Positions 8,456 to 63,110 of a stretch of 64,000 bases of DNA are shown here, one piece after another (within the stretch, counting starts at the first letter, position 1; each line of letters begins with the position of its first letter). The translations under genes were made by a program, and so were the position numbers. The stretch is from positions 1-64,000 of the forward strand of contig QCEN01000005.1 of assembly GCA_003280575.1 (NCBI GenBank), in the 5' to 3' direction. This DNA is from Prochlorococcus sp. AG-355-P07 (GTDB taxonomy: Bacteria > Cyanobacteriota > Cyanobacteriia > PCC-6307 > Cyanobiaceae). The notes below the pieces were generated by a model that did no database searches, was not told the DNA's origin, and saw nothing but the letters and a program-made list of their open reading frames with translations.

Positions 8456-8500
8456 AGAGAAATGATAAATAATCAACTTTGGAAAATTAATTTTTTATAT

Positions 8501-9846: not shown

Positions 9847-9863
9847 TTATATAGCAGGCCTCC

Positions 9864-41967: not shown

Positions 41968-42249
41968 GATGCAGCTCCTAAAATTGCTCAAGTCCCCGTC
42001 CTATGGCTTGAGTCGTACTGCGGTCTATCAAATGGTAGATCGGACGATTTTGTAGTTATCACTACAATCCAGTTATAAAGTATTTATACTTAGATGTCAA
42101 CAATTTTTAGACTCCAAACTTAAATTTAAAATCAGATTCTGCCCCCACAAACTCCTTTAAAAGAATGTAGAACATATAACTACGAGTAACTCCCATAAAA
42201 ATTGAAAGAAATGCTAGAACCACACAAATAGGGCAATGTGGGAATCCCA

Positions 42250-44552: not shown

Positions 44553-44609
44553 TATTGGCTAATGAATAATGTGGCAGTAATCATAGAAATGGATTTCAAA
44601 ACCCCGTAA
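44553..44609 (+). pseudogene. EVE-domain-like 5' gene fragment, copy C
   Basis: YWLMNNVAVIIEMDFKTP*, colinear with copy B YWLMKSEPVFMAMDFKNR*. Confidence 0.5.
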
Positions 44610-44638
44610 AAAAATGTTCACAATATATTCATTATTAA

Positions 44639-44848
44639 ATGGCTTCACCTTCGAGTTGGGAATTCTATAAAGAAGAACAATCTAAGACTTTATGGGTCCA
44701 TATTTGTACCCAGGATTTAAAAGGTGTAGCTATTTCAATTAATAAATGGTGGAAGACAAGATATCCAGATTTCAAAATGAGAATAGTTTCTAAAAAAGAA
44801 TTCGAACATATAAAAAAGCATGAGCAGCAAAAGCTGCAACAAAATTAA
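44639..44848 (+). CDS. 69-aa hypothetical
   Basis: MASPSSWEFYKEEQSKTLWVHICTQDLKGVAISINKWWKTRYPDFKMRIVSKKEF. Confidence 0.65.
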   Translation: MASPSSWEFYKEEQSKTLWVHICTQDLKGVAISINKWWKTRYPDFKMRIVSKKEFEHIKKHEQQKLQQN

Positions 44849-44918
44849 TCTTTGGTAAATTTTAATGCTAAACATTTTAACTATTCAGCTAGTATCTTTT
44901 TAGTACATTAATAAACAA

Positions 44919-45074
44919 ATGAATTCCGCATTTGCAAAAGTCTCAAATTTGAAAGTTAATAGGGTTTCTAAAATAGCCATTACTATCGCATCATCAACTT
45001 TCTTCTTATGCGCATTAGGTCAAGCACCAATTTTCAAAAATATTCTTGCAGGTGCTTTCTCTTGTTCTGGCTAA
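44919..45074 (+). CDS. 51-aa hypothetical
   Basis: MNSAFAKVSNLKVNRVSKIAITIASSTFFLCALGQAPIFKNILAGAFSCSG. Confidence 0.5.
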   Translation: MNSAFAKVSNLKVNRVSKIAITIASSTFFLCALGQAPIFKNILAGAFSCSG

Positions 45075-45120
45075 AAAAATACTTGTTCACAAGAGATGCT
45101 GAGAATCTAGAGTAAATACT

Positions 45121-45164
45121 GATTGACAGTCGATCTAAATTAATGGGCAAGAAGCCCCTTTTTC
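45121..45164 (+). repeat. Dispersed GATTGACAGTCGATCT element, copy 1
   Basis: GATTGACAGTCGATCTAAATTAATGGGCAAGAAGCCCCTTTTTC. Confidence 0.7.
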
Positions 45165-45541
45165 TAATAGCAAAGTACACTATCCGCTTTAATTGATTCT
45201 TCGACTAGAACATCTGGCATAACAAACTCTGCAATATATCCATCTAGAAGCTTCTCATCGTAACCCCTAGATTTAGCAGACATTCCTGAGACATATATGG
45301 TAATTTTTGAATTCTTTAAATTTTGAAGATGTTCGTATAAATCTCCAGTACCTTGACCAACTATTTCACCAGCTTTTTTGCAATTTAATATTTGTACACC
45401 GTCTCCTGCTAGAAAAAGTGTTACTTTATGATCGTTTTTTTCTGCAGTGAGGGCAACCAATAAACCTAAAGTTATTTGATTTTTGGATTCTAAACCACTG
45501 TAAATATGAACTAAAACTGTATTGTCGGTAATGATAGACAT
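45164..45541 (-). CDS. DsrE-family protein
   Basis: NTVLVHIYSGLESKNQITLGLLVALTAEKNDHKVTLFLAGDGVQIL. Confidence 0.82.
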   Translation of the reverse strand: MSIITDNTVLVHIYSGLESKNQITLGLLVALTAEKNDHKVTLFLAGDGVQILNCKKAGEIVGQGTGDLYEHLQNLKNSKITIYVSGMSAKSRGYDEKLLDGYIAEFVMPDVLVEESIKADSVLCY

Positions 45542-45605
45542 TTAATCCTCACTAAATTTTGTTTTTATATCCTAAATAAAATCTATTTTCATTAGCTGTT
45601 TTTTT

Positions 45606-45647
45606 ATGAAACGCTTACTACTTACATATCTAAAAGCTAGTAATTGA
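45606..45647 (+). pseudogene. Truncated MKRLLL leader peptide remnant
   Basis: ATGAAACGCTTACTACTTACATATCTAAAAGCTAGTAATTGA; first 17 nt identical to gene at 54562. Confidence 0.4.
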
Positions 45648-45874
45648 TTGAGGATCTATTTTAGAGAGTAAACAATCCACTTTTTTTGATGAGAAACAAA
45701 TTTAAAAGATCAGCTTTTTTTATATGTCTGATGACCTTTTCTATCGAATATCACTAATCGGATTTTAGTTATTTTTAGCTCAATGGTATTTTTCCTAACG
45801 AAATATAGAGAAAAAAAAGTTAATAATATAAGTCAGATTTCCATGTCTGAACAGATTAAATTTTTAGAGCATTA

Positions 45875-46231
45875 ATGCAAAGATTTATAATTTCACCGTT
45901 ATTTGCTTTGTCTAGGTTTTTTATAAATATTTACGGAATATTTTTAAAGTTTTTTCTTCAATTAAATGGTGGTTATTGGTCAAGAATTGGTTTAGCCGAA
46001 AATATTACAAAGGAAAGAATAAAAAAAAGAAGATTATATATCCTCCCTTTTTATATTCTTCTGGCTTTATTGTTTGGATTACTATCTGCTTTATATTGGT
46101 ATTTTGTTATTCTTCATGTACCACTTTCAATAGAAAGATATTTAAGTCCTTTGAATAACAATATTGCTTTAATAATTGCTTTTGCTACTTTCTTTGGTTG
46201 GCTTTATATTCTTTGTAAAACAAAAAAATAA
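45875..46231 (+). CDS. 118-aa membrane hypothetical
   Basis: Two strong TM segments. Confidence 0.6.
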   Translation: MQRFIISPLFALSRFFINIYGIFLKFFLQLNGGYWSRIGLAENITKERIKKRRLYILPFYILLALLFGLLSALYWYFVILHVPLSIERYLSPLNNNIALIIAFATFFGWLYILCKTKK

Positions 46232-46332
46232 AATGCTTAATAAGAGATGATGTGGTCCTAGAATTAAAGATTTAATTAATCATGATTAAATCAATCTTAA
46301 GGATTCATGCAAAATATTTGAAACCGATTACT

Positions 46333-46440
46333 TTATTTATACGACAGTTCTGGTGATCGACTCGACCAAGGTTGACCAACTAGATCTTCACTAGCCAATG
46401 GTCTGCAACACCAAGGTAAATTAACTTTTCTAACCTTCAC
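46333..46440 (-). CDS. 35-aa ORF (GTG start) resembling part of the 8049-8423 family
   Basis: MKVRKVNLPWCCRPLASEDLVGQPWSSRSPELSYK vs GPCCRLYDREELPWPCSR. Confidence 0.4.
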   Translation of the reverse strand: MKVRKVNLPWCCRPLASEDLVGQPWSSRSPELSYK

Positions 46441-46617
46441 GGAAAGTAAGTTAAGTGATCAGAAATTAAACTCTTGGGATTAATTCTGAACTATCTTAAA
46501 AATAAAGTCGTTTGTAAAGCATGAAGAAGTGAGAAATCACTTTTACTTCCAAAACTAATTTCTAAGAAAATTCTTAATCTGATTATTAAATAGATCTCCT
46601 TTCTGTCGTCACCATAA

Positions 46618-46647
46618 AAAAAAAGACCTATAACAAAGTCTTTTTTT
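46618..46647. terminator. Bidirectional terminator-like hairpin
   Basis: AAAAAAAGAC...GTCTTTTTTT. Confidence 0.45.
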
Positions 46648-46834
46648 ATGTCTTAAATTTTATTGATTTACTGTTAATCCACAAATAACTAAATATTTTT
46701 ATCTCACTCTTTCACAATCAGTTAATGCTTTTTCAAAAGTAGAAAAGAAAGTACAAATGCTATTCAATGCAACCAACAAAAGAACTACTGATCTTCCATG
46801 TTGATTTAATTGAAGTGTTCTTTGAGTCATACTC

Positions 46835-47017
46835 TTAATAATCTTCGTTGTAATCGGATGGACTACCAGTTAAAGAACAAACAACTGATTCCTCTTTTTT
46901 CATTTCTTTTATTTCCATTATTGGTCTGCCCATTTTCTTAAGAACATCTATATCTTCTTTAGTCTGACAGCGAGCAATTATGTTTCCTTTTTGATCAAAG
47001 CAACTGTAGTAAGTCAT
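46835..47017 (-). CDS. 60-aa hypothetical
   Basis: MTYYSCFDQKGNIIARCQTKEDIDVLKKMGRPIMEIKEMKKEESVVCSLTGSPSDYNEDY. Confidence 0.65.
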   Translation of the reverse strand: MTYYSCFDQKGNIIARCQTKEDIDVLKKMGRPIMEIKEMKKEESVVCSLTGSPSDYNEDY

Positions 47018-47117
47018 TTTATTAAATGCAATTTAAAGTTTATGGTTGATTTCAGTTGTAGCAATGCAACCGACTCATGACAACCATATTTCTAATTTAG
47101 GTCAGCCATAGATTTAA

Positions 47118-47192
47118 ATGACTAAAAAAACATACCTCTTTCCGTACCTAAATGTTCCTCAAACCGCACACATTAGATACGCAGTATTTTAG
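47118..47192 (+). pseudogene. 24-aa ORF with VPxTAHI motif, possible fragment related to 48435 region
   Basis: MTKKTYLFPYLNVPQTAHIRYAVF. Confidence 0.35.
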
Positions 47193-47243
47193 TCAAATCA
47201 ATTAGAACAACGATGTAGCTAAACAAATATACAATGAGAATTT

Positions 47244-47381
47244 ATGAGTGGAGATTTCGAAACACTTGAAATTAATCAACCAAAAATTACATATTTAAAA
47301 CCAGATGACAATACATATTGGTTAGACAAATTAATTAATAATATTGAGGACATGAAGAACAAGATATCAAAAGATTGCTAG
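47244..47381 (+). CDS. 45-aa hypothetical
   Basis: MSGDFETLEINQPKITYLKPDDNTYWLDKLINNIEDMKNKISKDC. Confidence 0.55.
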   Translation: MSGDFETLEINQPKITYLKPDDNTYWLDKLINNIEDMKNKISKDC

Positions 47382-47595
47382 AAATTTAAGAAAGAAACTT
47401 TTTTATTAGATCTATAGTTTGAATGAGAAGCAATTCAAAAAAGAATTTAAATTTTGTATTTAAGGTAACCGCTTTTTTGTGAGCATTATTCAGAATAGGA
47501 GTCCGACTATTTTTTTATGCAAAAAAATTCAAATGAAAATTCTTATAAAAAAAGAATTGAAAATATAGAAAAAGGAAAATCTTATTTAAAAAGTA

Positions 47596-47871
47596 ATGGA
47601 TTTTTTAAATCAAAATCTAATCTATTTGAAGACATACAAAAATTTTTTTATAAAAGGTAATTTTAAAAAATTTTTTACTTTTGATTTATTAAATTTCTCT
47701 ATAAGCAAGCCATCACATAAAAGAACGAAAGACTTGAAAATGTTAGGAGAAAAAAGAATGGGTCAATTTTCTATAACTAAATTTAATCCCAAGAATCCTG
47801 CAGTGAAGCTAATAGCAGCAAAGATTACGAACTCGATTGAATCTCTCGGGGCAGAGTTCATAAAAAACTGA
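47596..47871 (+). CDS. Hypothetical; C-terminal half coding-like, N-terminus uncertain (overlaps 47-aa ORF 47517-47660 in another frame)
   Basis: MLGEKRMGQFSITKFNPKNPAVKLIAAKITNSIESLGAEFIKN. Confidence 0.4.
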   Translation: MDFLNQNLIYLKTYKNFFIKGNFKKFFTFDLLNFSISKPSHKRTKDLKMLGEKRMGQFSITKFNPKNPAVKLIAAKITNSIESLGAEFIKN

Positions 47872-47885
47872 TTTGAGTCATAATT

Positions 47886-48080
47886 TTATGACTGGAGAGA
47901 ATCTCTTAAATCAAACTTTTCAGCTTTTTCAATTTGACACTCAGTATCATCTTCAGCGCATTTGATTTCAGCTTTTTTGTTCATGTGGCTACTACAACCG
48001 CCTGCTATAACTGGTAAACCGGTCGTAGCCGTAAAACCTGTTAAACATACAAAGGCTATAAAAGGAAAAAGTCTTTTCAT
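47886..48080 (-). CDS. 64-aa exported lipoprotein-like protein
   Basis: MKRLFPFIAFVCLTGFTATTGLPVIAGGCSSHMNKK. Confidence 0.55.
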   Translation of the reverse strand: MKRLFPFIAFVCLTGFTATTGLPVIAGGCSSHMNKKAEIKCAEDDTECQIEKAEKFDLRDSLQS

Positions 48081-48266
48081 TAAATTGTTACTTTATGTAA
48101 ACTTATTATGTTACATAAAAAGCTCAAGCGTGAGTAGCTTATAGTTCGCGTGAACCATATACCAACCATCACTTCCCTAAATAGAAACTTTGATGGATAA
48201 TAAACATATAAAAAAATTCTGATTCTAGCAAAATTCTGGTAGATAAATTACTCCAAATCCCCTGAT

Positions 48267-48311
48267 ATGACTGAAGAAAAATTTTGGCTAATGAAAAGTG
48301 AACGCGACTAG
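48267..48311 (+). pseudogene. EVE-domain-like 5' gene fragment, copy A
   Basis: MTEEKFWLMKSERD*. Confidence 0.5.
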
Positions 48312-48342
48312 CTAATACTTGGATCTAAAGAAATCATAATTT

Positions 48343-48364
48343 TTTACTCAAACTTTACTCAAAC
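48343..48364 (+). promoter_or_regulatory. Perfect 11-bp tandem direct repeat (TTTACTCAAAC x2)
   Basis: Two exact consecutive copies upstream of the small Cys gene. Confidence 0.5.
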
Positions 48365-48539
48365 TTTTTTAAATTTGAAATTAATAATTTTGAAGATATT
48401 CGGCTGGTCATTATTTTGAATTTGAGAGTCTTTTTTGATCCTTAATCCGTACAATTTTGTTCCTCTAACCGCACACATAAAACTTGAGATTAACTATTCA
48501 AATGAATTAGAACATAAGTGTAGTCAAGAGGTAAGTCTT

Positions 48540-48692
48540 ATGGCATTAAACGACACATTTACCATCCAAGAGATGGTCTTGGATACAAAAGATCTTTCAT
48601 ACGATATTAAGGCGAAAGAACTTGAAGCTTACTGGAATAAAGAATGCGAAAAGCATCCTAGTAATAACCATTGCAAAATTTTTTGCGATTAA
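48540..48692 (+). CDS. 50-aa protein with CP12-like C-x3-P-x4-C C-terminus (ORF track start 48435 is upstream)
   Basis: MALNDTFTIQEMVLDTKDLSYDIKAKELEAYWNKECEKHPSNNHCKIFCD. Confidence 0.6.
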   Translation: MALNDTFTIQEMVLDTKDLSYDIKAKELEAYWNKECEKHPSNNHCKIFCD

Positions 48693-48778
48693 TACTCGAA
48701 CTTTTTAAGTATTCTTACGCTTGATTTTTATATATCATCCGTACTAAAGCATAGTCAGATAGAAAGGAGGAAAAGCAG

Positions 48779-48880
48779 ATGACTAATTTAAATATAGAGA
48801 TTCTATTTTGGGCAATTTTAGTTTCTTATCTGGGATTAAGATTTTCTAAAACCTGGGATGGCTTCAAAAAACAGTATTAA
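48779..48880 (+). CDS. 33-aa TM microprotein, paralog of 36174-36278
   Basis: MTNLNIEILFWAILVSYLGLRFSKTWDGFKKQY with AAAGGAGG Shine-Dalgarno. Confidence 0.65.
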   Translation: MTNLNIEILFWAILVSYLGLRFSKTWDGFKKQY

Positions 48881-48893
48881 TTAGGAGGGAAAA

Positions 48894-49040
48894 ATGAAAC
48901 TTCAAACACAATTCACAGTTCCAAACAAAGGTCTGCGAGATCTTGATTATGTCAATAAAGTAGAAGTTTTAGAAGAAACTTTTAAGAGAGAATGTCAAGA
49001 TTACCCAACTAAAGAAGATTGTTTAGTTTGTTGTAACTGA
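48894..49040 (+). CDS. 48-aa protein with CP12-like C-x3-P-x4-C C-terminus
   Basis: MKLQTQFTVPNKGLRDLDYVNKVEVLEETFKRECQDYPTKEDCLVCCN with AGGAGGG Shine-Dalgarno. Confidence 0.65.
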   Translation: MKLQTQFTVPNKGLRDLDYVNKVEVLEETFKRECQDYPTKEDCLVCCN

Positions 49041-49112
49041 CTATTCATTAATCGGTTTTCATAGCTTATAAATTTTAAAAATATTCATAAATTTTTAAGG
49101 AGAGGTTTAACT

Positions 49113-49631
49113 ATGAAATTAAAATTCATGCCAACAAAAATTTTTAGAGAGACTCCAAAAGTTATATTCTTTGATGCAGGATTGGGGGCATCTAATGGTT
49201 GTGATGTGGTAATTCATTCTGAAGAAGCTATATCTCCTCCAGATGATTTTAAAGATGAGCAATATTACGTTCACAATCATCAAATTGATCACAACTTAGT
49301 TATTACTGGGGAAAGAATATTTGTTTTAATAAATCCTGCATGGGATGAACCTCATCATGTGATTTATTTAAATAGATCTATGGGAGCTTTAGAAATTCCT
49401 GTTGGAACTTATCACAGATCAATCTCAGGAAAAGAAGGAAGTATTGTTTTAAATCAACCCACAAGAGATAATTTTTTTGATCCAGCTAAAGAATTTATCC
49501 CACAAAAATTAGACCAAATAAGTTTAATAAAGGCAAGAAAAACTCCACCTGTTTATTGGGTTTGGGAAAATGATCAAATTAAGAGAGTTGGGTTTAATCC
49601 CTTAGAACGAAGAATTAAGACCCTTGCTTAA
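49113..49631 (+). CDS. Cupin-like conserved protein
   Basis: DHNLVITGERIFVLINPAWDEPHHVIYLNRSMGALEIPVGTYHRSISGKEGSIVLNQPTRD; AAGGAGAGG upstream. Confidence 0.7.
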   Translation: MKLKFMPTKIFRETPKVIFFDAGLGASNGCDVVIHSEEAISPPDDFKDEQYYVHNHQIDHNLVITGERIFVLINPAWDEPHHVIYLNRSMGALEIPVGTYHRSISGKEGSIVLNQPTRDNFFDPAKEFIPQKLDQISLIKARKTPPVYWVWENDQIKRVGFNPLERRIKTLA

Positions 49632-50499
49632 TATGAACAAAACACAAAAAGGTATTTCAACCAAAATTAATAATTCAAAAAATCTGAATTTAATTATTAA
49701 TTCTGATACGTATAAATTGGCTTATGAAGATATTGGTTTGCTCAACAGAAACGAAATGCGCGGAGTCAGAATGCTGCTTGAAATTACTAAACCAGATTTA
49801 ATCCTAGAAGAAAATAAAATTCTTTCAACCATAATAATTTTTGGAGGCGCAAGTATTACAGAAGAATCAAAAACAAAAGAGAAAATTGACGAAATAAAAA
49901 AGTTAATTAAAAAAAATCCTTCATCGGTTTTGCTTAAACGAAATTTAAGTAGATTAGAAAATTTGCTATCAATGAGTCACTATTATCAATCCGCAAGAGA
50001 GTTTTCTAAACTTGCTTCAAAAAATAATCAAAGTAAATCATGTAATTCTCATGTGATTGTGACTGGTGGGGGTCCAGGGATTATGGAAGCTGCTAATAGA
50101 GGTGCGTTTGAAGCAAATTGTAAATCTATAGGGTTAAATATCAGTCTTCCCAATGAACAAATCCCCAATGCTTTTATAACACCAGGTCTATGCTTTAAAT
50201 TTAATTATTTTGCATTAAGAAAGATCCATTTCGTCATGCGATCAATAGGAGCTGTATTTTTCCCTGGGGGTTTTGGAACATTAGATGAATTATTTGAACT
50301 TTTAACACTTCGTCAAACAGGAATGAAAAACAAAATCCCAATAATACTTTTTGGAAGAGAATATTGGGATAAGATAATTAACTTCGAATATCTAGCTGAT
50401 CTTGGATTAATTTCAGATGAGCACTTAAAACTTTTTGAATATGCAGACACCGCATCCGAAGCATGGGAAATTATCAAATCATCAAATATCTCAGATTAG
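49624..50499 (+). CDS. LOG-family (lysine decarboxylase-like, TIGR00730-type) protein
   Basis: VTGGGPGIMEAANRGAF, PGGFGTLDELFELLTLRQTG. Confidence 0.88.
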   Translation: MLNMNKTQKGISTKINNSKNLNLIINSDTYKLAYEDIGLLNRNEMRGVRMLLEITKPDLILEENKILSTIIIFGGASITEESKTKEKIDEIKKLIKKNPSSVLLKRNLSRLENLLSMSHYYQSAREFSKLASKNNQSKSCNSHVIVTGGGPGIMEAANRGAFEANCKSIGLNISLPNEQIPNAFITPGLCFKFNYFALRKIHFVMRSIGAVFFPGGFGTLDELFELLTLRQTGMKNKIPIILFGREYWDKIINFEYLADLGLISDEHLKLFEYADTASEAWEIIKSSNISD

Positions 50500-50603
50500 G
50501 ATAGGTATCCAAAAAATAATGAAGTTTCCCCATACCACCCATCACTTTCCTAAATAGAAGCTTTAATGGATAATGATTTTATAAAGGCAAATCTTATATT
50601 TCA

Positions 50604-50622
50604 TTCACGATTCATTCACGAT
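50604..50622 (+). promoter_or_regulatory. 11-bp-phased direct repeat TTCACGAT-N3-TTCACGAT
   Basis: TTCACGATTCATTCACGAT. Confidence 0.45.
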
Positions 50623-50648
50623 TTGCAATATTCTCTTAATCCCTTGAT

Positions 50649-50720
50649 ATGACTGATATTAATTACTGGCTAATGAAAAGTGAGCCAGTATTCATGGCAA
50701 TGGATTTCAAAAACCGTTAA
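50649..50720 (+). pseudogene. EVE-domain-like 5' gene fragment, copy B
   Basis: MTDINYWLMKSEPVFMAMDFKNR*; YWLMKSEP is the N-terminal hallmark of EVE-domain proteins. Confidence 0.6.
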
Positions 50721-50727
50721 AAAAATG

Positions 50728-50746
50728 TTCACGATATATTCACGAT
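50728..50746 (+). promoter_or_regulatory. 11-bp-phased direct repeat TTCACGAT-N3-TTCACGAT
   Basis: TTCACGATATATTCACGAT. Confidence 0.5.
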
Positions 50747-50783
50747 TTTTACAGCTAAAATAAATTGAAAAAATTTGATGATA

Positions 50784-50930
50784 ATGGCAATTTCAAACTA
50801 TAGAAAGCAAAGGATAATGCTATTAGCAAGACTCAATCTTGGTTTAGCTAGTGAAGATAAAGAAGAAATTGATCTTTATAATCACTATCAAAAAAATATT
50901 TATTCAGAACAAAATCACCAGCAGCAATAA
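50784..50930 (+). CDS. 48-aa hypothetical
   Basis: MAISNYRKQRIMLLARLNLGLASEDKEEIDLYNHYQKNIYSEQNHQQQ. Confidence 0.55.
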   Translation: MAISNYRKQRIMLLARLNLGLASEDKEEIDLYNHYQKNIYSEQNHQQQ

Positions 50931-50940
50931 AAAATAACTT

Positions 50941-50980
50941 ATTGACAATCGATCTAAAATAAGGGGCATTAGCTCCTTTT
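50941..50980 (+). repeat. Dispersed TTGACAGTCGATCT element, copy 2
   Basis: ATTGACAATCGATCTAAAATAAGGGGCATTAGCTCCTTTT, 3 nt before the NTF2-like start codon. Confidence 0.75.
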
Positions 50981-50983
50981 CTA

Positions 50984-51367
50984 ATGTCAAATACTAAAGC
51001 CATAGAAGATTTAATTAATGGTTATGCAACCAGTGAAGATTCTTCTTTTCTAATACCAAACGTAACTGAAGATTTTTTAGCTGTAAGACCAAGTGGAAAT
51101 CCTATATCTGCTAAGGGATTAGAGGGAATGTTTGATAGCAAAGACTTAGTTGCAGAATCATCAGAACTAATCAAAATCCACAAAATTGAAATTTACGGTG
51201 AGATAGCTTACGCAGTTTTTACTTTAAATGAAATCTTCAGTTATAAAGGAAATCAAAATAAAGATCTTTCAACTTATACTTGCATTTTTAAAAATGTAAA
51301 TGGTACTTGGAAGTATTCTTGGATGCAAAGATCTCAAGGCACTACTGATATGACCACATGGGAATAA
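50984..51367 (+). CDS. SnoaL/NTF2-like small protein, paralog of 41006-41392
   Basis: FLAVRPSGNPISAKGLEGMFD...KIHKIEIYGEIAYAVFTLNEIFSYKGNQNKDLSTYTCIFKNVNGTWKYSWMQRSQG. Confidence 0.8.
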   Translation: MSNTKAIEDLINGYATSEDSSFLIPNVTEDFLAVRPSGNPISAKGLEGMFDSKDLVAESSELIKIHKIEIYGEIAYAVFTLNEIFSYKGNQNKDLSTYTCIFKNVNGTWKYSWMQRSQGTTDMTTWE

Positions 51368-51460
51368 ATGAAAAGATTCCTAATCCCACTGCTAGCTGCT
51401 CAAGCATTGCCTATGAATAGTTGTGAGTTCTTTAGGTTAAAGCTAAGAATTCTTTTGTAA
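51368..51460 (+). pseudogene. MKRFLIPLLAAQALP leader remnant (30 aa)
   Basis: ATGAAAAGATTCCTAATCCCACTGCTAGCTGCTCAAGCATTGCC. Confidence 0.4.
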
Positions 51461-51703
51461 TAATCTAATGCCAGATATTACAGAGATTATCGATGCAATA
51501 CCAAGAAATATCGAATAAAAAGGCTGCAAATTAATAATGCCAAAATTACCTGTATGCCATTTGATCAACCCAAAAGCATCTACTCCTAATGGTTGAAGAA
51601 AACTATAGATAGTCCCAGATATAAGAGTAATTAATAAAGGTATTGAAGAAATTGCAGCTACTTTTCTATGTATTTTCCTTTTACTAAGTTTAAATTTTTG
51701 CGT
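51443..51703 (-). CDS. 86-codon PepSY-TM-like ORF without canonical start, in frame after the upstream gene's TAA
   Basis: TQKFKLSKRKIHRKVAAISSIPLLITLISGTIYSFLQPLGVDAFGLIKWHTGNFGIINLQPFYSIFLGIASIISVISGIRLLQKNS. Confidence 0.55.
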   Translation of the reverse strand, partial: TQKFKLSKRKIHRKVAAISSIPLLITLISGTIYSFLQPLGVDAFGLIKWHTGNFGIINLQPFYSIFLGIASIISVISGIRLLQKNS

Positions 51704-51925
51704 TTACATTCTTAGGTACTTATGTAATTCTTTTTCATCCTCACATGGAAGCCATTTCTCTTTGTTCTTATGTGTTCCTTGACAACCAAGTTCTAATGAC
51801 TTTTTTAAAGCATCTTGCTCAGAAGAATATGTTCCTTTCATATGAGCATGTGAATATGAATTGAAATTAAGAAATATAAAAATGAAAAAAGTAAGAATTT
51901 TTATCTTTCTAAAAACAAAAGTCAT
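51704..51925 (-). CDS. DUF3721-like small exported protein
   Basis: HAHMKGTYSSEQDALKKSLELGCQGTHKNKEKWLPCEDEKELHKYLRM. Confidence 0.72.
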   Translation of the reverse strand: MTFVFRKIKILTFFIFIFLNFNSYSHAHMKGTYSSEQDALKKSLELGCQGTHKNKEKWLPCEDEKELHKYLRM

Positions 51926-51948
51926 TATTAATCAAATTAGTATTTTTG

Positions 51949-52467
51949 TTAGGGTGAAATTTTGTCGAATATTTTTGTTTTGCCACTATTACTAAATGAA
52001 ACTACTTTGTAATTTTCATAATTATGCGAGTGTGATTCGTGAGAATGCATTTCCATTCCAGGCGAACCAAGAGGCATGCCAGGAACTGCTATACCAGAGA
52101 TAATTGGTTTTTCTTTAAAAAGTTTAGTGATTGATTCAATCGGCACATGTCCTTCAATTGCGTAGTTTCCTATTTTTGCAGAGTGGCAGGACCTTAAATT
52201 ATTGGGAATTTTATATTGGTTTTTAATTCCCGAAACATCTTCAAGAATATTATCAACAACTTCTAATCCATTTTGGCGTAAATGATTTACCCATTTCTTA
52301 CAACAACCGCATGATGCTGATCTATAAGAAACGACTTTAGGTATATCTATATTATCTTGATTTTTAGCACTACTCTTTTGGGCATTAAATATATTTACTA
52401 TGAGAAATCCAGAAAATAAAAGAGTCTTTAGTAAATGCTTCTTAAAGAATGATTTCTTAAATGCCAT
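51949..52467 (-). CDS. DUF411 metal-binding protein
   Basis: YRSASCGCCKKWVNHLRQNGLEVVDNI...SCHSAKIGNYAIEGHVPIESITKLFKEKPIISGIAVPGMPLGSPGME. Confidence 0.92.
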   Translation of the reverse strand: MAFKKSFFKKHLLKTLLFSGFLIVNIFNAQKSSAKNQDNIDIPKVVSYRSASCGCCKKWVNHLRQNGLEVVDNILEDVSGIKNQYKIPNNLRSCHSAKIGNYAIEGHVPIESITKLFKEKPIISGIAVPGMPLGSPGMEMHSHESHSHNYENYKVVSFSNSGKTKIFDKISP

Positions 52468-52528
52468 TTCAGTAAGGAATTCTTATTTTCAAAACTATTA
52501 ATAAAATAAATGAAATTTTATAAAATTG

Positions 52529-52981
52529 TTATTTAATCAAAATCAAAGCACTCATAATTGCCATTAAAAGATTTTCAATAAAACTAATAACTCCTAAAGG
52601 AATTTTTGTATATCCTCCAACGCATGCACAATTTAATTTTAATTTATCTAAATAAACAGCTTTAAAAACTGATGCCATTCCAAAAATTCCTAGTATTAAA
52701 GCAATTAAAATAATTAAAGAGGGAGGTGAAGATAGTAAAAAACATAAGCCAATTAATAATTCGCAAAAAGGATAGATATAAATCCAATTTTTAAATCGAG
52801 AAGTAATTAAATCATATTTTTTATAACTCAAACCAAAAGCTTCAATATCCATAAGCTTCAGCATCGCTAAAAGACATATTGATATGCCCATAAAAACTTG
52901 GAAGCTTTTAATCAAAATAATAGTTATAAGAAATGAAGTACCAAATACTGCAACCAATGGTGTAAAAGACTTTAATTGCAT
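52529..52981 (-). CDS. MauE/DoxX-like membrane protein with CACVGG motif
   Basis: Four TM segments, KLNCACVGGYTKIPLG. Confidence 0.75.
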   Translation of the reverse strand: MQLKSFTPLVAVFGTSFLITIILIKSFQVFMGISICLLAMLKLMDIEAFGLSYKKYDLITSRFKNWIYIYPFCELLIGLCFLLSSPPSLIILIALILGIFGMASVFKAVYLDKLKLNCACVGGYTKIPLGVISFIENLLMAIMSALILIK

Positions 52982-52984
52982 TTT

Positions 52985-53227
52985 TTAACTTTTAAGAACA
53001 GAGTCACAAATACTAGATGGATTTGCCTGCTTAACTATTCTTAGCTTTTTGATAAGAGTGTCTCGATCTATTTGATGTTTTAAATATTTAATACAAAGAT
53101 TCTTTTCCCTATTTAAATAAGCTTCTGTTCTTAAACTGCTAGCAATAGAGAATAAATTAATAGCAATAATCGCTAATAAAATGCTCATTGGGTATTTTTT
53201 GATAAAAGGAAGAACTTTATTTTTCAT
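52985..53227 (-). CDS. 80-aa membrane-anchored hypothetical
   Basis: Co-oriented and nearly contiguous with the MauE-like gene. Confidence 0.6.
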   Translation of the reverse strand: MKNKVLPFIKKYPMSILLAIIAINLFSIASSLRTEAYLNREKNLCIKYLKHQIDRDTLIKKLRIVKQANPSSICDSVLKS

Positions 53228-53277
53228 TATTTATAATCTTTATTTTAATCTAAATAGCATAGCAATATTTTAAATTT

Positions 53278-53409
53278 CGCAGCCGCGATATGAAGGGTTC
53301 TCTTCACACTTAAGTTTCCAATAAATTACTTTAATATTTGCTCCATTATCTATATCATTAATAGTCCTAAAGTATTTAGGAATGATTGTATAAGGAACTC
53401 TTTTATTCA
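53278..53409 (-). CDS. Approximately 46-aa protein with C-x3-P-x4-C C-terminus (coordinates approximate)
   Basis: MNKRVPYTIIPKYFRTINDIDNGANIKVIYWKLKCEENPSYRGCEI. Confidence 0.55.
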
Positions 53410-53651
53410 TGATTTCCTCTTACTTACTACACCTATGCTCTAACTACCTACGCATATTATTTATGAGTATCACAATGTACGGTTTAAGGAAGAATAAAGT
53501 TCGGGTAGAGGACCAAATTTTGAGACTGTTATTTAATTACCAGTCCTAGGATTAATACATGGTTGTCATGAGGCAGTTGCAGGCATACAATTGAAGCCAA
53601 TCATAAATTATTTGAGATAAAGTCGAGAGAGAGATATCAATCAGTAAATAG

Positions 53652-53678
53652 ATGATTGACTGTCGATATAAAAATCTA
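53652..53678 (+). repeat. Dispersed TTGACAGTCGATCT element, degenerate copy 3
   Basis: ATGATTGACTGTCGATATAAAAATCTA. Confidence 0.5.
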
Positions 53679-53749
53679 AATTTAAAGATAAATTAAATAC
53701 TTTTTAAATTATCGTTTTTAGATTGAAATTACACTATTGAATTTTAATT

Positions 53750-54070
53750 ATGGCTTACTATCACGTTCATGGAGTTATCCCAGATACTCTTTCGCAATCT
53801 GAAGGGTACAAACTCTTTGAACAATATATTGCTTCCGGCGCACCTAAGGATAATTTTGACGGCTTTGAATTGATAAGTAGAGTCCATGCTCCTCAAACCG
53901 GAGAAGTTTTCGTAACATGCAAAGCTGACAGTCATCTTAAAATGGCTGAACATTTTGGTATTTGGAGAGCAAAATTTGGCGTTGAATGGAATGTACTTCC
54001 TGTTTTTAATGATGAAGAAGTTATTCTAAGAAATAAACAACTTGCTGAAGAAGTAGCAGCGATGGGATAA
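53750..54070 (+). CDS. DUF3303-like protein
   Basis: MAYYHVHGVIPD...RVHAPQTGEVFVTCKADSHLKMAEHFGIWRAKFGVEWNVLPVFNDEE. Confidence 0.75.
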   Translation: MAYYHVHGVIPDTLSQSEGYKLFEQYIASGAPKDNFDGFELISRVHAPQTGEVFVTCKADSHLKMAEHFGIWRAKFGVEWNVLPVFNDEEVILRNKQLAEEVAAMG

Positions 54071-54075
54071 TTTAA

Positions 54076-54124
54076 TTGATTGACAGTCGATCTAAAATAA
54101 GGGGCAATTAGCTCCTTTTTTTTT
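54076..54124 (+). repeat. Dispersed TTGACAGTCGATCT element, copy 4, ending as a terminator-like hairpin
   Basis: TGATTGACAGTCGATCTAAAATAAGGGGC-AATTA-GCTCCTTTTTTTTT. Confidence 0.8.
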
Positions 54125-54152
54125 AATATGTTTATATAAATTCCTTAAGTTT

Positions 54153-54557
54153 ATGCGTTCACTTTTATTATTGCCTTTGCTTTTAGGTTTTTCATTTCCA
54201 GCGAATGCAAAGTCAGAGACTTACTTTATTGATGTTTCAGCAGAAAGTATAGAAAACTATATTCTTAGTGGTAAAGATAAAAATGGATCTGTAAGTGGGA
54301 ATGATCCTACAGTTACTGTTAATAAAGGAGATACTATTGTTTTTAATGTTGATGCGTTTAGTCATCCGTTTTATATAAAGACTGAATTTTCTCGTGGAGG
54401 CGGTGATCAAGTAACCAAAGGGACATTATCAGGTACCCCTGGAACTCAAGATGGAAAACTATCATGGAACACAACGGGTGTATCAGCTGGGAAATACTAT
54501 TATGTTTGTTCTCCTCATGCACCTTTTGGGATGGGAGGCTCAATTATTGTTGAATAA
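54153..54557 (+). CDS. Exported plastocyanin-like cupredoxin
   Basis: Signal peptide MRSLLLLPLLLGFSFPANA; SHPFYIK and YYVCSPHAPFGMGGSIIV (C, H, M ligands). Confidence 0.85.
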   Translation: MRSLLLLPLLLGFSFPANAKSETYFIDVSAESIENYILSGKDKNGSVSGNDPTVTVNKGDTIVFNVDAFSHPFYIKTEFSRGGGDQVTKGTLSGTPGTQDGKLSWNTTGVSAGKYYYVCSPHAPFGMGGSIIVE

Positions 54558-54561
54558 ATAA

Positions 54562-55131
54562 ATGAAACGCTTACTACTCCCATTACTAGCTGCCCTCGCT
54601 TTACCAACTGGTGTTAATGCTGAAATATCTGATGAATTACATAAAAAATGTTTAGAAGCACGAGATTATGCAGGATGTGTGAAAACTAATAAAAAACTAT
54701 CTCATAAAAAAGATAAGGAAATATCAGGGATTGGAATAAGGCTTTTTCTCAATAGTGACACTGCTGAATTAACTATTCAATCTGTAATAAATGATTCACC
54801 TGCTGCTTCAGCTGACATTAAACCAAATGATGTAATCATAAAAATAGATGGCAAATCAACTAAAGGAATGGGTATAAATGAAGCTGTTTCTCTCATAAAA
54901 GGACCAAAAGATAAGCCAATTAAATTAGTTTTATCAAGAATTAATGAGGCAGGTAAAAAGGAAAAAATAAATGTTCGATTAGTAAGAGATACTTTTAAAG
55001 TCTCAACAAAAGACTATTTATATGAAGGTGATTTAAGGAGGCAATTAGAGTTTTTCTTTCCAGAAAATATAAAACAGATTTTTCCAGAAAATGATTCCTC
55101 GTCAAAGCTCAAAGAAGGAACTTCAATTTAA
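54562..55131 (+). CDS. Exported PDZ-domain protein
   Basis: MKRLLLPLLAALALPTGVNAE leader; GIGIRLFLNSDTAELTIQSVINDSPAASADIKPNDVIIKIDGKSTKGMGINEAVSLIKGPKDKPIKLVLSR. Confidence 0.85.
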   Translation: MKRLLLPLLAALALPTGVNAEISDELHKKCLEARDYAGCVKTNKKLSHKKDKEISGIGIRLFLNSDTAELTIQSVINDSPAASADIKPNDVIIKIDGKSTKGMGINEAVSLIKGPKDKPIKLVLSRINEAGKKEKINVRLVRDTFKVSTKDYLYEGDLRRQLEFFFPENIKQIFPENDSSSKLKEGTSI

Positions 55132-55139
55132 ATTTCTGA

Positions 55140-55352
55140 ATGAAACGCATACTCCTAGTTGAACTTTTATTAGTTTTAATTACCATAATTTATGTTTCTC
55201 TAAACCCAATTTCAAGAATTTATATTGCTGATTATTTAGAAAAGATATCCTTATTTTTATTTAAAACAGTAAGTGAAGAAGATTTAAATAAGTGGTATGA
55301 GAAAAGAGATAAGTATGAATTACTTGAGAAATTAGGAGGAACTGCTTATTGA
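55140..55352 (+). CDS. 70-aa membrane-anchored hypothetical
   Basis: MKRILLVELLLVLITIIYVSLNPISRIYIADYLEKISLFLFKTVSEEDLNKWYEKRD. Confidence 0.6.
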   Translation: MKRILLVELLLVLITIIYVSLNPISRIYIADYLEKISLFLFKTVSEEDLNKWYEKRDKYELLEKLGGTAY

Positions 55353-55390
55353 TTGACAGTCGATCTACCATAATTAGCATTTAGCTCCTT
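55351..55390 (+). repeat. Dispersed TTGACAGTCGATCT element, copy 5 (decayed hairpin)
   Basis: GATTGACAGTCGATCTACCATAATTAGCATTTAGCTCCTT. Confidence 0.65.
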
Positions 55391-55391
55391 C

Positions 55392-55649
55392 TCAACCTCT
55401 TTGAGTTCCTCTCAATAATTCTCGTAATTTTAACCTAAGACTAAAAATGAAATCAGGTTCAGAAAACCAATTATCTTTATCTGTTATTTCTACAGTTTCG
55501 TTTAAAAATTTAGCGGAAGAAGTCAAAGAATTTGCAATAATTACTTTTGATTTTGGACTTGAGTAAATAAATCCAATAATTAACACAATTAAAAATATGG
55601 ACCCTTTAACTTTAAGTGATTTAATAAATTCTTTTTTTAAGTAACCCAA
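55392..55649 (-). CDS. 85-aa membrane-anchored hypothetical
   Basis: FLIVLIIGFIYSSPKSKVIIANSLTSSAKFLNETVEITDKDNWFSEPDF. Confidence 0.6.
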   Translation of the reverse strand: MGYLKKEFIKSLKVKGSIFLIVLIIGFIYSSPKSKVIIANSLTSSAKFLNETVEITDKDNWFSEPDFIFSLRLKLRELLRGTQRG

Positions 55650-55701
55650 AATAATTTAAAAATTAAATTTATTTTAGGAGTTGATATTTAAAGACAGATT
55701 A

Positions 55702-55725
55702 AATTGACAGTCAATCTAAAATAAA
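55702..55725 (+). repeat. Dispersed TTGACAGTCGATCT element, copy 6 (no hairpin)
   Basis: AATTGACAGTCAATCTAAAATAAA. Confidence 0.55.
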
Positions 55726-55746
55726 AAAAGTGATAAGTTTTTAAAA

Positions 55747-55914
55747 ATGAGTAAATTTTCCTCTCAGGAAATAGAAAGTCAATATAACTTAATAAAAACG
55801 CTTTTATCTAATCCTGAAAAGTATAAAGATGCGATAGATGCAGTTAAAAAAGATATTGCTTATATGCCACTAGAACTTAAGAAAAAACTTGAAGAAGAAA
55901 ATATTACTTTATAA
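55747..55914 (+). CDS. 55-aa hypothetical
   Basis: MSKFSSQEIESQYNLIKTLLSNPEKYKDAIDAVKKDIAYMPLELKKKLEEENITL. Confidence 0.6.
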   Translation: MSKFSSQEIESQYNLIKTLLSNPEKYKDAIDAVKKDIAYMPLELKKKLEEENITL

Positions 55915-56914
55915 ATAATATTTTGGAAGACTTCGAAATATTTACTAAATAAAGCATCAAAGGAACTTCTACTAGTACCCCAACGATGGTAGCCAAAGCA
56001 GCTCCTGAATTAATACCAAAAAGAGTTATCGATACAGCTACTGCAAGTTCAAAAAAGTTTGAAGCGGCTATCATCGAGCCTGGACAGGAAATAGAAAACT
56101 TTTGCCTAAAAAACTTCATTGAAAAAGCAGTTAAATAAAAAATAAAAAGAGTCTGAATTATTAATGGAATTGAAATTAAGATTATATGAATAGGATTTTG
56201 TAATATAGATTTTGATTGAACAAAGAATAATAAAAAGACTGTAAGAATTAAAAAAAACAACGAATAACTTTTACTTTTATTCAAAATACTTTTTATTCTT
56301 TTTTCGCTATAGATTTTATTTTTTAAAAATATTGCTAGAAAAAGTGGTACCAAAATAAAGATTATTACAGAACCGAAAACAGTATCTAACGGGATATCTA
56401 TACTGTTAAATCCTAAAAGAATTTTTGACAATAATGGAAAGGCTAAAATTAATATTAGATCATTAATAGCTACTTGGATTAAAGTAAATAAAGGATCGCC
56501 TTTAACAAGATTACTCCAGACAAAAACCATTGCTGTACATGGCGCTATTCCTAATAGGATCATTCCAGAAACATATTCTTTAGCAAGTACAGGATCTATA
56601 AAATTACCATATAAAAAATATAAAAAAGAGGCTGCAATGATTGCCATTGAAACTGGTTTTATTAACCAATTAATAAAAAGGACAATAGAAAATCCTTTAA
56701 TCTTATATTTCAAATTTATTATTGACTTGAAATCTATTGATAACATCATTGGAAAAATCATTCCCCAGATAAGAATTGCTATTGGAAGATTTATTCTTGA
56801 GAGTTCTAATTCGCCTATAAATTGAGATAAATTAGGAAATAAATAACCGGATAAAGATCCAATACACATTGCTAAGAAAACCCAAACACTTAGATATCTA
56901 TCAGAAAATTGCAT
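55904..56914 (-). CDS. ACR3-type arsenite efflux permease
   Basis: GIAPCTAMVFVWSNLVKGDPLFTLIQVAINDLILI and AASNFFELAVAVSITLFG are ACR3 signatures. Confidence 0.92.
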   Translation of the reverse strand: MQFSDRYLSVWVFLAMCIGSLSGYLFPNLSQFIGELELSRINLPIAILIWGMIFPMMLSIDFKSIINLKYKIKGFSIVLFINWLIKPVSMAIIAASFLYFLYGNFIDPVLAKEYVSGMILLGIAPCTAMVFVWSNLVKGDPLFTLIQVAINDLILILAFPLLSKILLGFNSIDIPLDTVFGSVIIFILVPLFLAIFLKNKIYSEKRIKSILNKSKSYSLFFLILTVFLLFFVQSKSILQNPIHIILISIPLIIQTLFIFYLTAFSMKFFRQKFSISCPGSMIAASNFFELAVAVSITLFGINSGAALATIVGVLVEVPLMLYLVNISKSSKILFIK

Positions 56915-56959
56915 TTAATTTATCTTTACTTAACTATTCATCCTAGTATTTAATTTAGT

Positions 56960-57775
56960 CTAAATAATAGCCTTTCTTATTTTTGCTGTAATCCATTCAC
57001 TAAAAACTACTGCCACTACTATTGCTAATAAAATAACTGATACCTTAGCCCAAGCTAAGTCTCCTATTTGAGCATCTAATTCTATCCCTATACCTCCTGC
57101 TCCAACTAAGCCAACAACAGTTGCTTCTCTTATATTTATATCCCACCTATAAATAGAAATACTCGTAAATGCTGGGAGAATTTGAGGCACTATGCCAAAG
57201 GTCATAATTTGTGCTTTATTTGCCCCTGTTGCCTCAATAGCTTCAATTTGGTTTTCATCAATTTCCTCTATAGCTTCATAAAGTAATTTTCCACAAAATC
57301 CAATCGATCTTAATCCGATAGCAATTATGCCAGCCAAGACTCCCGGACCGACAACTGCAACCAGAAGTAATGCCCAGATTACTGAATTAATTGATCTGCT
57401 TGAAACTATGCAAAATAAGGCTAAAGGTCTTAAAAACTTTTTACTTGGGGTAGTATTGTTTGCGGATAAAAAAGCTAATGGTATTGCAATTAAAGTTCCA
57501 ATCGTTGTACCAATAGTCGCGATATTTAAAGTATCCCAAATAGGTTTTATTAAAGTGAAGAAATAATTAGTTTCTGGAGGAAACATCCTACCTAAAAGAT
57601 CTAAAGCCTCATTATGTGAATCAAATACATAAAACCAGATTGTTTTACTACTAATCAGACCGAAACAAAAGCTAAAAATTAAAGTACCTAAGAACCAACA
57701 AAGCCAGTTTTGTAAATCTCTTTTTCGATCAAATTTTTTCCAGGTTTTGTAATCCTTTTGTTTTATTATTGGCAT
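56960..57775 (-). CDS. phnE: Phosphonate/phosphite-type ABC transporter permease (PhnE-like)
   Basis: EAIEATGANKAQIMTFGIVPQILPAFTSISIYRWDINIREATVVGLVGAGGIG. Confidence 0.9.
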   Translation of the reverse strand: MPIIKQKDYKTWKKFDRKRDLQNWLCWFLGTLIFSFCFGLISSKTIWFYVFDSHNEALDLLGRMFPPETNYFFTLIKPIWDTLNIATIGTTIGTLIAIPLAFLSANNTTPSKKFLRPLALFCIVSSRSINSVIWALLLVAVVGPGVLAGIIAIGLRSIGFCGKLLYEAIEEIDENQIEAIEATGANKAQIMTFGIVPQILPAFTSISIYRWDINIREATVVGLVGAGGIGIELDAQIGDLAWAKVSVILLAIVVAVVFSEWITAKIRKAII

Positions 57776-58572
57776 TACTTTATTAATTTCCTGAGATGAC
57801 TAGATGTATATTCAACAATCATCACGATAGAAATAATTACGATAAGAACAGCCGCTGCAGTCTCAAATTCATATCTATCAAAAGCTGTATTTAAGGTAGA
57901 ACCAATACCTCCTCCCCCAACAATTCCAATTACCGCTGACTCTCTAAAATTAATATCCAATCTGTATAAAGATAATCCAATAAATCTTGGCATAACTTGA
58001 GGCTGGACACCATAATTAACCCATTGAAACCAACTGCTGCCAGTAGATTTGATTGCTTCAGCTTGGGATTTATTTATGTCTTCAATATCTTCAGATAATA
58101 ATTTAGCGAAAAACCCTATTGTCGATAAACTCAGAGTTACCATTCCAGCAAAAGGTCCAAAACCCATTAACTTAACAAAAAATATTGCTAGGATAACTTC
58201 CTGAAAACTCCTCGACAATGTGATAACTCCTCTTGATAAGAAATAAACAAATTTAGGAGCTATGTTTTTAGCCGCCCCTAAGGATACAGGTATAGAAATA
58301 AGTATCCCCACAATAGTTGCAACAATAGTCATCCATAGACTTTCAAAAATACCTGCCAAAATCTCATCAGATCTAGTTATAAAATCTGGAGGGAAAAAAG
58401 CAAATATAAAATTTTTACCCCTTGGGATCCCTTCAAGAATTCTTTGCCAATCAATTTCGGTAGTTAGGAAAACAGATAATAAGTAAGTACTAATTATCAA
58501 AATTAATCCAATTCTTAATAACCTATTTTTTATTAACGGTTTTCTTTTCCAAATTACTTTCTTATCATTCAT
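57775..58572 (-). CDS. phnE: Phosphonate/phosphite-type ABC transporter permease (PhnE-like), second copy
   Basis: EAIKSTGSSWFQWVNYGVQPQVMPRFIGLSLYRLDINFRESAVIGIVGGGGIG. Confidence 0.9.
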   Translation of the reverse strand: MNDKKVIWKRKPLIKNRLLRIGLILIISTYLLSVFLTTEIDWQRILEGIPRGKNFIFAFFPPDFITRSDEILAGIFESLWMTIVATIVGILISIPVSLGAAKNIAPKFVYFLSRGVITLSRSFQEVILAIFFVKLMGFGPFAGMVTLSLSTIGFFAKLLSEDIEDINKSQAEAIKSTGSSWFQWVNYGVQPQVMPRFIGLSLYRLDINFRESAVIGIVGGGGIGSTLNTAFDRYEFETAAAVLIVIISIVMIVEYTSSHLRKLIK

Positions 58573-58583
58573 TTAATATATTC

Positions 58584-59351
58584 CTAATTTGCTGCAGTTT
58601 TAGACCAGTCTTCTTCTCCATATATTTTTGTAAGTATTGCCTCTGATAAGCCACTTGGCTTGCCATCGTAAACAATTTCTCCAGCTTTTAAACCTATTAT
58701 TCTTTCTGCAAAATTCTGAGCAAGAAAAACATCATGAATATTTATAATCGCAGCAAGATTTCTTTCATTACATAACTCGCATATTAATCGCATAATTTGC
58801 CTGGAATTTTTGGGATCTAAACTAGCGGTAGGTTCATCTACTAAAAGTAACATTGGATTTTGTATCAAAGCTCTAGCAATTCCTACTCTTTGCCTCTGCC
58901 CTCCTGACAATTCATCGGCTCTTTTATCAAGCATATGCTCTAGTCCAATTCTTTGAAGCAGACGGAATGCTTCTTCAATATCTTTTTGAGGAAATTTCCT
59001 GAAAAAACTATTCCAAAATCCTACGTAACCTAATCTGCCGGAAAGGACATTTTCCATTACACTTAATCTTTCTACCAAAGCAAATTCCTGGAAAATCATT
59101 CCAATTTGTCTTCTTATTTTTCTTAATTTAGATTTATTTAAAGAAGTAATGTCATTTTTTTCATTAGCGAAATAAACTTTCCCTGAAGTGGGCTCAACTA
59201 ATCTATTTATTGTTCTAATAAAAGTACTTTTACCAGCACCTGAAGGACCGATAAGAGCAACTACTTGCCCATTAGGAATTTCTAGGTTTATTCCTTTAAG
59301 CGCCTCTTCTCCATTTGGATAAACCTTTTTGAGGTTTATTGTTTTAAGCAT
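58584..59351 (-). CDS. phnC: Phosphonate/phosphite-type ABC transporter ATP-binding protein
   Basis: [46 protein letters not shown]. Confidence 0.94.
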
Positions 59352-59382
59352 TAAGTCTGATTTTATTTATGATTAAAAATTT

Positions 59383-60381: not shown

Positions 60382-60572
60382 TAGTGTTGAATTTATTCTC
60401 CATATTTAACTTGCTCTAAAGAGATTAACTTTTTCCCAAAAAGAGTTTAAATTCTGATTAAGTGTTTTATTTTGAGTTACTCAATTTTTAATCAGATTTA
60501 TTAAGGAATTAAATAATTTTTAATTTATTTTTAATTTTATAAATTTAGGGTGATTGAATTTAAGAAATAAAT

Positions 60573-61109: not shown

Positions 61110-61161
61110 CTAAGCCTTAATAAAATAGATTTATTTTATATATACAAACAATATCTTTATT

Positions 61162-61467: not shown

Positions 61468-61470
61468 CAA

Positions 61471-61719: not shown

Positions 61720-61735
61720 ATTTTTACAAAAGAAT

Positions 61736-61906: not shown

Positions 61907-62057
61907 GATCTTATGCAGTTAATGAGAATCCCGTTCCCTATTCTCATTTCATGCGTCCAAATAAATTGGATGAACGTAGAAGTAAGCTAACATTAAAAAA
62001 AAAGGTCGGATTTAAGATATATTTAAAAAATCTTTAAAAGTAGTTTTTAATAAAATT

Positions 62058-63090: not shown

Positions 63091-63110
63091 TCTTAGGTCA
63101 ACTAGATCAA

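Follow-up and report, generated by a model that had tools for sequence, protein, structure and literature searches.

Displaced 5′ ends of an EVE-domain gene in a Prochlorococcus island as probable junctions of successive site-specific integrations

What places the first codons of one gene at several points of a genomic island? Prochlorococcus has few recognized mobile elements, and its islands turn over fast and carry niche genes. The window analyzed here, the first 64,000 nucleotides of contig QCEN01000005.1 of Prochlorococcus sp. AG-355-P07, holds three fragments, A, B, and C, that match the 5′ end of a gene for an EVE-domain protein (hereafter EVE). We consider it highly probable that site-specific integration into the start region of EVE, in successive rounds, left these fragments behind as displaced halves. 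This reading draws on the polarity of the copies, the crossover interval, modular exchange across it, the vocabulary, spacing, and matching of flanking arm repeats, and the linkage of an integrase to the locus in relatives, all of which are apparent at the level of sequence. To our knowledge, the start of EVE has not been recognized before as a gene-capture hot spot of Prochlorococcus and its relatives.

Displaced copies of the EVE start

A first-pass annotation of the window had reported tiny open reading frames (ORFs) at 48267 (MTEEKFWLMKSERD, then a stop) and 50649 (MTDINYWLMKSEPVFMAMDFKNR, then a stop) and a third frame near 44553 (YWLMNNVAVIIEMDFKTP, then a stop), with one block shared upstream of A and B and another downstream of B and C; all were recovered from the sequence. 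A search of the genome against itself aligned copy B with C (84% identity over 83 bp, E 7e-20) and with A (71% identity over about 143 bp, E 1e-13), beyond chance in both cases. Copy B also matched contig positions 68963 to 68999 and 69122 to 69160, two blocks that fall, respectively, in front of an intact EVE gene and at its start. That gene (69123 to 69581 on the same contig, about 5 kb right of the window; PF01878, E 3e-52, at 69135 to 69572) is the only intact EVE in the genome, and the three fragments match its 5′ end. The annotation had made its case depend on an intact EVE homolog and on significant alignment among the fragments, and both are present; its view that the fragments derive from EVE and belong to promoter-plus-5′-end modules repeated in the island stands. 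A position weight matrix scan of 80 kb returned only the three fragments and the EVE start as sites, the four scoring 45, 41, 40, and 18, with all others at 9 or less.

The core of each copy is an 11-mer, TGGCTAATGAA, which in EVE corresponds to the codons Trp-Leu-Met (TGG CTA ATG AA). Three displaced cores (44556, 48285, and 50667) and the EVE core (69141) make up the array in this genome. Across the genus, EVE was found in 84 of the 101 genomes, none of which held a second copy. The sample comprised 81 regions, each at most 20 kb long except for one of about 80 kb from this genome; EVE lay in 75 of the regions, which covered 1.01 Mb upstream and 0.29 Mb downstream of the gene. Further exact copies of TGGCTAATGAA numbered 78 upstream on the strand of EVE, none downstream, and 1 on the other strand. 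At least one exact displaced core was present in 35 of the 52 loci with at least 10 kb of upstream sequence, and the largest array, in G066, had seven. The genes immediately downstream of EVE were kept in 71 to 72 loci; the upstream genes were variable. The sole inverted exact core lies on the minus strand of L099 (G101), about 2.8 kb upstream of EVE, and may perhaps reflect an inversion within the array.

We propose the following course of events, where X denotes the module upstream of a core and Y the module downstream. The attP site of an element, made of X arms, the core TGGCTAATGAA, and Y arms, would recombine with the EVE codons TGG CTA ATG AA. The old upstream region and start codon of EVE would be carried away to the opposite side of the element and abut its left end (Y), so that the fragments would be attL-type junctions in the 5′ coding end of a single-copy EVE. 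From the right end (X), EVE would receive an in-frame ATG with a few residues of new N terminus, along with another upstream region. As the rebuilt EVE would again bear the site, new elements would stack between earlier ones and EVE, yielding the order X0-core-[Y1 cargo X1]-core-[Y2 cargo X2]-core-EVE, in which EVE keeps the last place. The recombinase would be a lambda-Int-like tyrosine integrase of about 525 residues; most units, including all those in the window, have no integrase gene and would presumably be mobilized in trans. The parts of the array are as follows.

44556–44566, plus strand: displaced core C (TGGCTAATGAA), the leftmost and most decayed of the array
44556–48284, plus strand: unit C to A, 3.7 kb, with small-ORF cargo that recurs between cores in G009, G107, G108, and G110
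44614–44633, plus strand: Y arm repeats at the left end of unit C to A, ATGTTCACA and ATATTCATT, of a degenerate TTCACG type and 11 bp apart
48172–48191, plus strand: palindromic upstream block of module A, of the TTCCTAAATAGGAA type, lying about 115 nt upstream of the core
48222–48241, plus strand: X arm repeats at the right end, copy A, ATTCTAGCA and ATTCTGGTA
48267–48311, plus strand: displaced EVE 5′ end A, MTEEKFWLMKSERD and a stop
48285–48295, plus strand: core A, the crossover interval
48285–50666, plus strand: unit A to B, 2.4 kb, encoding a LOG-type Rossmann protein (49636–50499) and a 172-residue protein
48345–48364, plus strand: Y arm repeats at the left end of unit A to B, TACTCAAAC twice
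50545–50564, plus strand: palindromic upstream block of module B
50601–50620, plus strand: X arm repeats at the right end, copy B, TCATTCACG twice
50649–50720, plus strand: displaced EVE 5′ end B, MTDINYWLMKSEPVFMAMDFKNR and a stop
50667–50677, plus strand: core B, the crossover interval
50667–64000 and on to the EVE core, which lies outside the window (contig position 69141), plus strand: unit or units B to EVE, 18.5 kb
50725–50744, plus strand: Y arm repeats at the left end of unit B to EVE, ATGTTCACG and ATATTCACG

The left half of copy A matches EVE-attached DNA of G107 (92.6% over 417 nt), and that of copy B matches EVE-attached DNA of G002 (91.4% over 420 nt); each match reads as a natural before-and-after pair. 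The similarity downstream of B and C that the annotation had reported is the left end of an element and not EVE sequence. The cargo of unit A to B also lies between cores in G075 (8123 to 10498). The B-to-EVE stretch has two ends of different arm type and may comprise several units with decayed cores inside.

Exchange at the core and paired arm repeats

Alignments of displaced left halves with the EVE-attached left halves of other genomes located the point of exchange. All 236 alignments at 88% identity or more reached core base 11, and 92 of them stopped there; right-half-only matches among displaced copies started no later than core base 1 in every case but one. X modules formed 62 clusters, 16 of which occurred both attached to EVE and displaced, and Y modules formed 23. 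X and Y modules assort freely across the core, with 76 distinct X-Y joints among 89 displaced sites. The attB site would lie within the 5′ coding part of EVE, a conserved gene, the crossover being confined to 11 bp at its Trp-Leu-Met codons.

An in-frame ATG at most nine codons from the core was present in 73 of 73 exact EVE-attached X modules, where the frame is restored with a new N terminus, and in 72 of 90 displaced ones, compared with 10.6% of random positions. An upstream palindrome, TTCCTAAATAGGAA, was found in 44 of 72 EVE-attached and 62 of 89 displaced modules (2.75% at random). This palindrome recurs in X modules of different arm types and is a candidate operator or promoter part of EVE.

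Flanking the core are paired repeats that resemble integrase arm sites. X modules contain two direct repeats starting 63 to 66 bp before the core, and Y modules have repeats of the same kind 58 to 60 or 70 bp after the core start. Of 162 X modules, 66 had a pair of repeats identical at nine of nine positions, as had 57 of 89 Y modules but none of 162 shuffled X modules; the spacing within a pair was 11 bp in 129 of the X modules and 78 of the Y modules. Both sides draw on one small vocabulary (ATTCTAGCA, TTCACGA, CATACCAGC, TAYYCAAAC, ATTCGAAC, RTCCACA, and RTTCACAC); the TGACTAGCA type occurs on the X side only.

With arm types that were defined post hoc, after inspection of the data, the two ends of one unit (Y at its core and X at the next core) agreed in 20 of 50 cases (7.0 expected, p 5e-5), whereas X and Y at the same core agreed in 4 of 45 (5.6 expected). 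When inverted TAYYCAAAC repeats (D arms) were counted as well, agreement within units rose to 30 of 65 (12.8 expected), against 9 of 50 at the same core in the later count (9.9 expected). Removal of duplicate unit types left 16 of 43 (8.4 expected, p 0.002). Agreement was strongest in the units beside EVE, at 7 of 18 (2.2 expected).

An integrase linked to EVE in relatives

Reading the ORFs of units with matching ends revealed a candidate recombinase near the attachment site in relatives, although not in this window. In G072, a 10.2-kb unit beside EVE opens, 118 nt after the core, with a gene for a 522-residue protein that matched phrog_1 among the PHROG integrases (E 3e-14). A scan of the 101 genus genomes with the Pfam Phage_integrase and Resolvase profiles had found no recombinase in EVE islands because this integrase scores too low for such a search; PF00589 matches 17 of 18 integrase homologs at E values up to 0.01. 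In G164, G212, G184, G150, G031, and G201, a close relative of the protein likewise stands behind a core with its Y arms; the one in G204 is frameshifted. The Y arms beside the integrase are the same as the X arms at EVE in G184, G150, G072, G201, and G204, and the same holds for G320 and G361 from other genera.

The linkage extends beyond the genus. In other genera, homologs of at least 59% identity that share a contig with EVE all lie upstream of it on its strand (G329, G304, G320, G354, G306, G366, and G361, and a remnant in G374); more distant homologs have no such linkage. In G306, an altered core, TGGATCATGAA, occurs at EVE and at the displaced copy alike. Among the INPHARED phages, copy B had no meaningful match and the integrase none; plasmid sequences likewise gave no match to the integrase, and a PDB sequence search with it returned chance matches only.

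The N-terminal domain of the integrases tracks the arm type. Over residues 1 to 66 of 17 integrases, mean identity was 87.6% between proteins of the same arm type, versus 49.5% between those of different types. In the clearest cases, proteins with RTCCACA arms (G421, assigned by its Y arms, the only ones on its contig, G354, and G366) and with TTCCAAC arms (G329, G320, and G306) are 95 to 99% identical in residues 330 to 522 but just 50 to 52% identical in residues 1 to 66. The N terminus of the G204 protein is nearest to other-genus proteins with the same arms (59 to 61%), whereas its C-terminal part is nearest to its own genus (81 to 85%). These patterns suggest that the N-terminal domain binds the paired arm repeats and the catalytic part the shared core. 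They would make these integrases a naturally occurring series with concerted change in the N-terminal domain and the DNA repeats and a nearly constant catalytic part, which should allow arm recognition to be decoded.

An AlphaFold model built from 7 sequences was poor (predicted local distance difference test score [pLDDT] of 49), and one built from 18 sequences (pLDDT 78.5) was used. Its best PDB match was lambda Int 1z1b (E 2e-7), followed by Cre, XerA, and Tn1549 Int; by predicted fold, the protein of about 525 residues is a lambda-Int-like tyrosine integrase. The candidate catalytic residues K373, R458, and Y490 are invariant. Integrases with Ser in place of a catalytic Arg, a point taken up below, include L110:6918-8486 and its homologs.

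Alternatives, known systems, and island cargo

Several findings weigh against integration as the source of the fragments. This genome's array holds no integrase gene or clear remnant of one, so that any activity here would be past or in trans, and the units in the window would be remnants or satellites, presumably moved in trans. The reference protein P0001 scored 18.4 bits with PF00589, below the cut-off of 27.1, and the usual first catalytic Arg is Ser (GMSPEE) throughout the EVE-targeting clade, three distant homologs having Arg. Arm types agree in under half of the units, and in internal units alone the agreement was not significant (9 of 25, 6.3 expected, p 0.12), as would be expected if old arrays had been reshuffled. 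Many loci come from related genomes, and the counts are therefore not of independent events.

The first-pass annotation had explained the fragments by copying, in the form of repeated duplication of a promoter-plus-5′-gene cassette. As weighed here, copying has the cassette multiplied, by duplication or by homologous recombination between short repeats, and dispersed before small genes. Modules do recur, and displaced copies keep the in-frame ATG and the upstream palindrome at the frequencies given above, far over random for the palindrome. Copying nevertheless leaves unexplained the one-sided, one-strand polarity with EVE last, the restriction of joints to 11 bp, paired arms that match within a unit and not across the core, and the linked integrase. 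The X halves are also of many types, each displaced X being evidently a former 5′ end of EVE, so that the recurrent modules of that proposal hold and their origin from duplication of one cassette does not; we assign copying a very slender probability. The annotation had itself argued against independent gene decay, and rightly so. Decay of several EVE paralogs would account for EVE-like fragments, but every one of the 84 genus genomes where the gene was found has just one copy of it, and the downstream halves of displaced copies are recurrent non-EVE left ends and not a decayed EVE body, which makes the chance of such an origin next to nil.

X modules might instead be selected regulatory leaders, that is, actuaton-like cassettes of small RNA (sRNA) or 5′ untranslated region that provide cassette genes with a shared promoter, the EVE peptide being incidental. 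The annotation had raised a role for the fragments as leaders or upstream ORFs, which would be speculative here. The palindrome and the ATG are conserved, a small gene comes after each displaced copy in the window, on its strand, and actuatons are known in cyanobacteria (PMC5386190). An equally good account of the conserved parts, however, is that every element has to deliver a functional 5′ region to EVE; some copies precede genes on the opposite strand, and an Rfam scan at the copies found no known RNA family. A leader function would moreover be a by-product role and not an origin. We find this explanation of the fragments improbable. The island sRNAs Yfr11 and Yfr16 were considered and set aside, their MED4 coordinates (358606 and 657392; PMC2518516) being away from the copies in G015 (1.354 to 1.368 Mb), a genome inferred to be MED4.

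Successive integration into the EVE start, which we prefer, could be part of something broader. We put forward, tentatively and at somewhat less than even confidence, that the EVE start is a dedicated cassette-capture platform in picocyanobacteria, integron-like in function but served by a lambda-type integrase. Mini-cassettes of 1 to 5 kb, holding nothing but cargo, arm sites, and an extra 5′ end of EVE, would be mobilized in trans by integrases with swapped arm domains, and each capture would reset the upstream control and N terminus of EVE. If so, EVE expression would follow the history of the island. Integration at EVE would also give this hypervariable island a concrete, testable mechanism: the site is 11 bp long, the ends of elements can be read, the integrases form a family, and the order of insertions is recorded.

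The dusA islands, and SXT in prfC, are known to replace the promoter and N terminus of the gene they target (PMC8409611, PMC4482086). The dusA elements (IMEVchUSA3 and others) and the SXT/R391 integrative and conjugative elements in prfC also share with the present array an occasional tandem integration (PMC8409611, PMC4482086). Here, in contrast, the target is EVE and the host group is another, the arrays consist of many short units (median, 3 kb) that mostly have no integrase, displaced 5′ ends form an array, and interchangeable arm types are matched to swapped integrase N domains. Lambda integrase is similar in predicted fold, in its N-terminal, core-binding, and catalytic parts, and in the paired arms flanking the core; the proteins described here differ from it in sharing only 13% identity in structural alignment, in having several interchangeable arm vocabularies, and in the Ser at the usual first catalytic Arg.

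Additive islands grow by repeated insertion at one site, as in fGI-2 of Methylophilaceae with its tRNA-Lys 3′-end repeats (PMC10872708). The EVE islands resemble them in repeated one-site insertion that extends the island, with up to seven cores upstream of EVE and none downstream, in short att repeats, and in cargo of mostly unknown small genes. They differ in that insertion is at the beginning of a protein gene and not at a tRNA end, and in that each event would rewrite an upstream region and an N terminus. Tycheposons, as far as PMC10872708 describes them, border one of seven tRNA genes; on that description they share with the EVE units a tyrosine recombinase (here in relatives), nutrient-gene cargo, and location in Prochlorococcus islands, whereas the border here is EVE with an 11-bp protein-coding core. 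The only tRNA in the window is tRNA-Val (12958 to 13029) and the array repeats are EVE codons, so that a tRNA border does not apply. Actuatons (PMC5386190) are likewise transferable 5′ cassettes before different genes, but they are defined by an abundant sRNA, whereas a recombination origin explains the modules here. We found no paper on EVE as a site of this kind in Prochlorococcus in a literature search that covered neither the primary tycheposon paper nor most subscription papers, and priority for the finding is unproven.

The cargo in the window includes genes for phosphonate or phosphite transport and arsenite efflux, all in the B-to-EVE stretch.

55904–56914, minus strand: Acr3 arsenite efflux gene
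56960–60381, minus strand: PhnE, PhnE, PhnC, and PhnD-like phosphonate/phosphite ABC transporter genes

Small redox proteins resembling cytochrome c6 (63111 to 63464) and plastocyanin (54153 to 54557) are also encoded in the island, both under the NCBIfam cut-offs. Upstream of the array, a glutamine-II riboswitch (RF01704, E 2e-12) lies at 41987 to 42049 on the minus strand. A second dispersed repeat, TGATTGACAGTCGATCTAAAATAAGGGGC..TAGCTCCTTTTT, occurs at 45120 to 45163, 50939 to 50982, 54077 to 54120, 55350 to 55393, and 55703 to 55724. It precedes several island genes and has a terminator-like GGGGC/GCTCC stem, and in some relatives (L217 and L226) it seems to start right after the Y arms.
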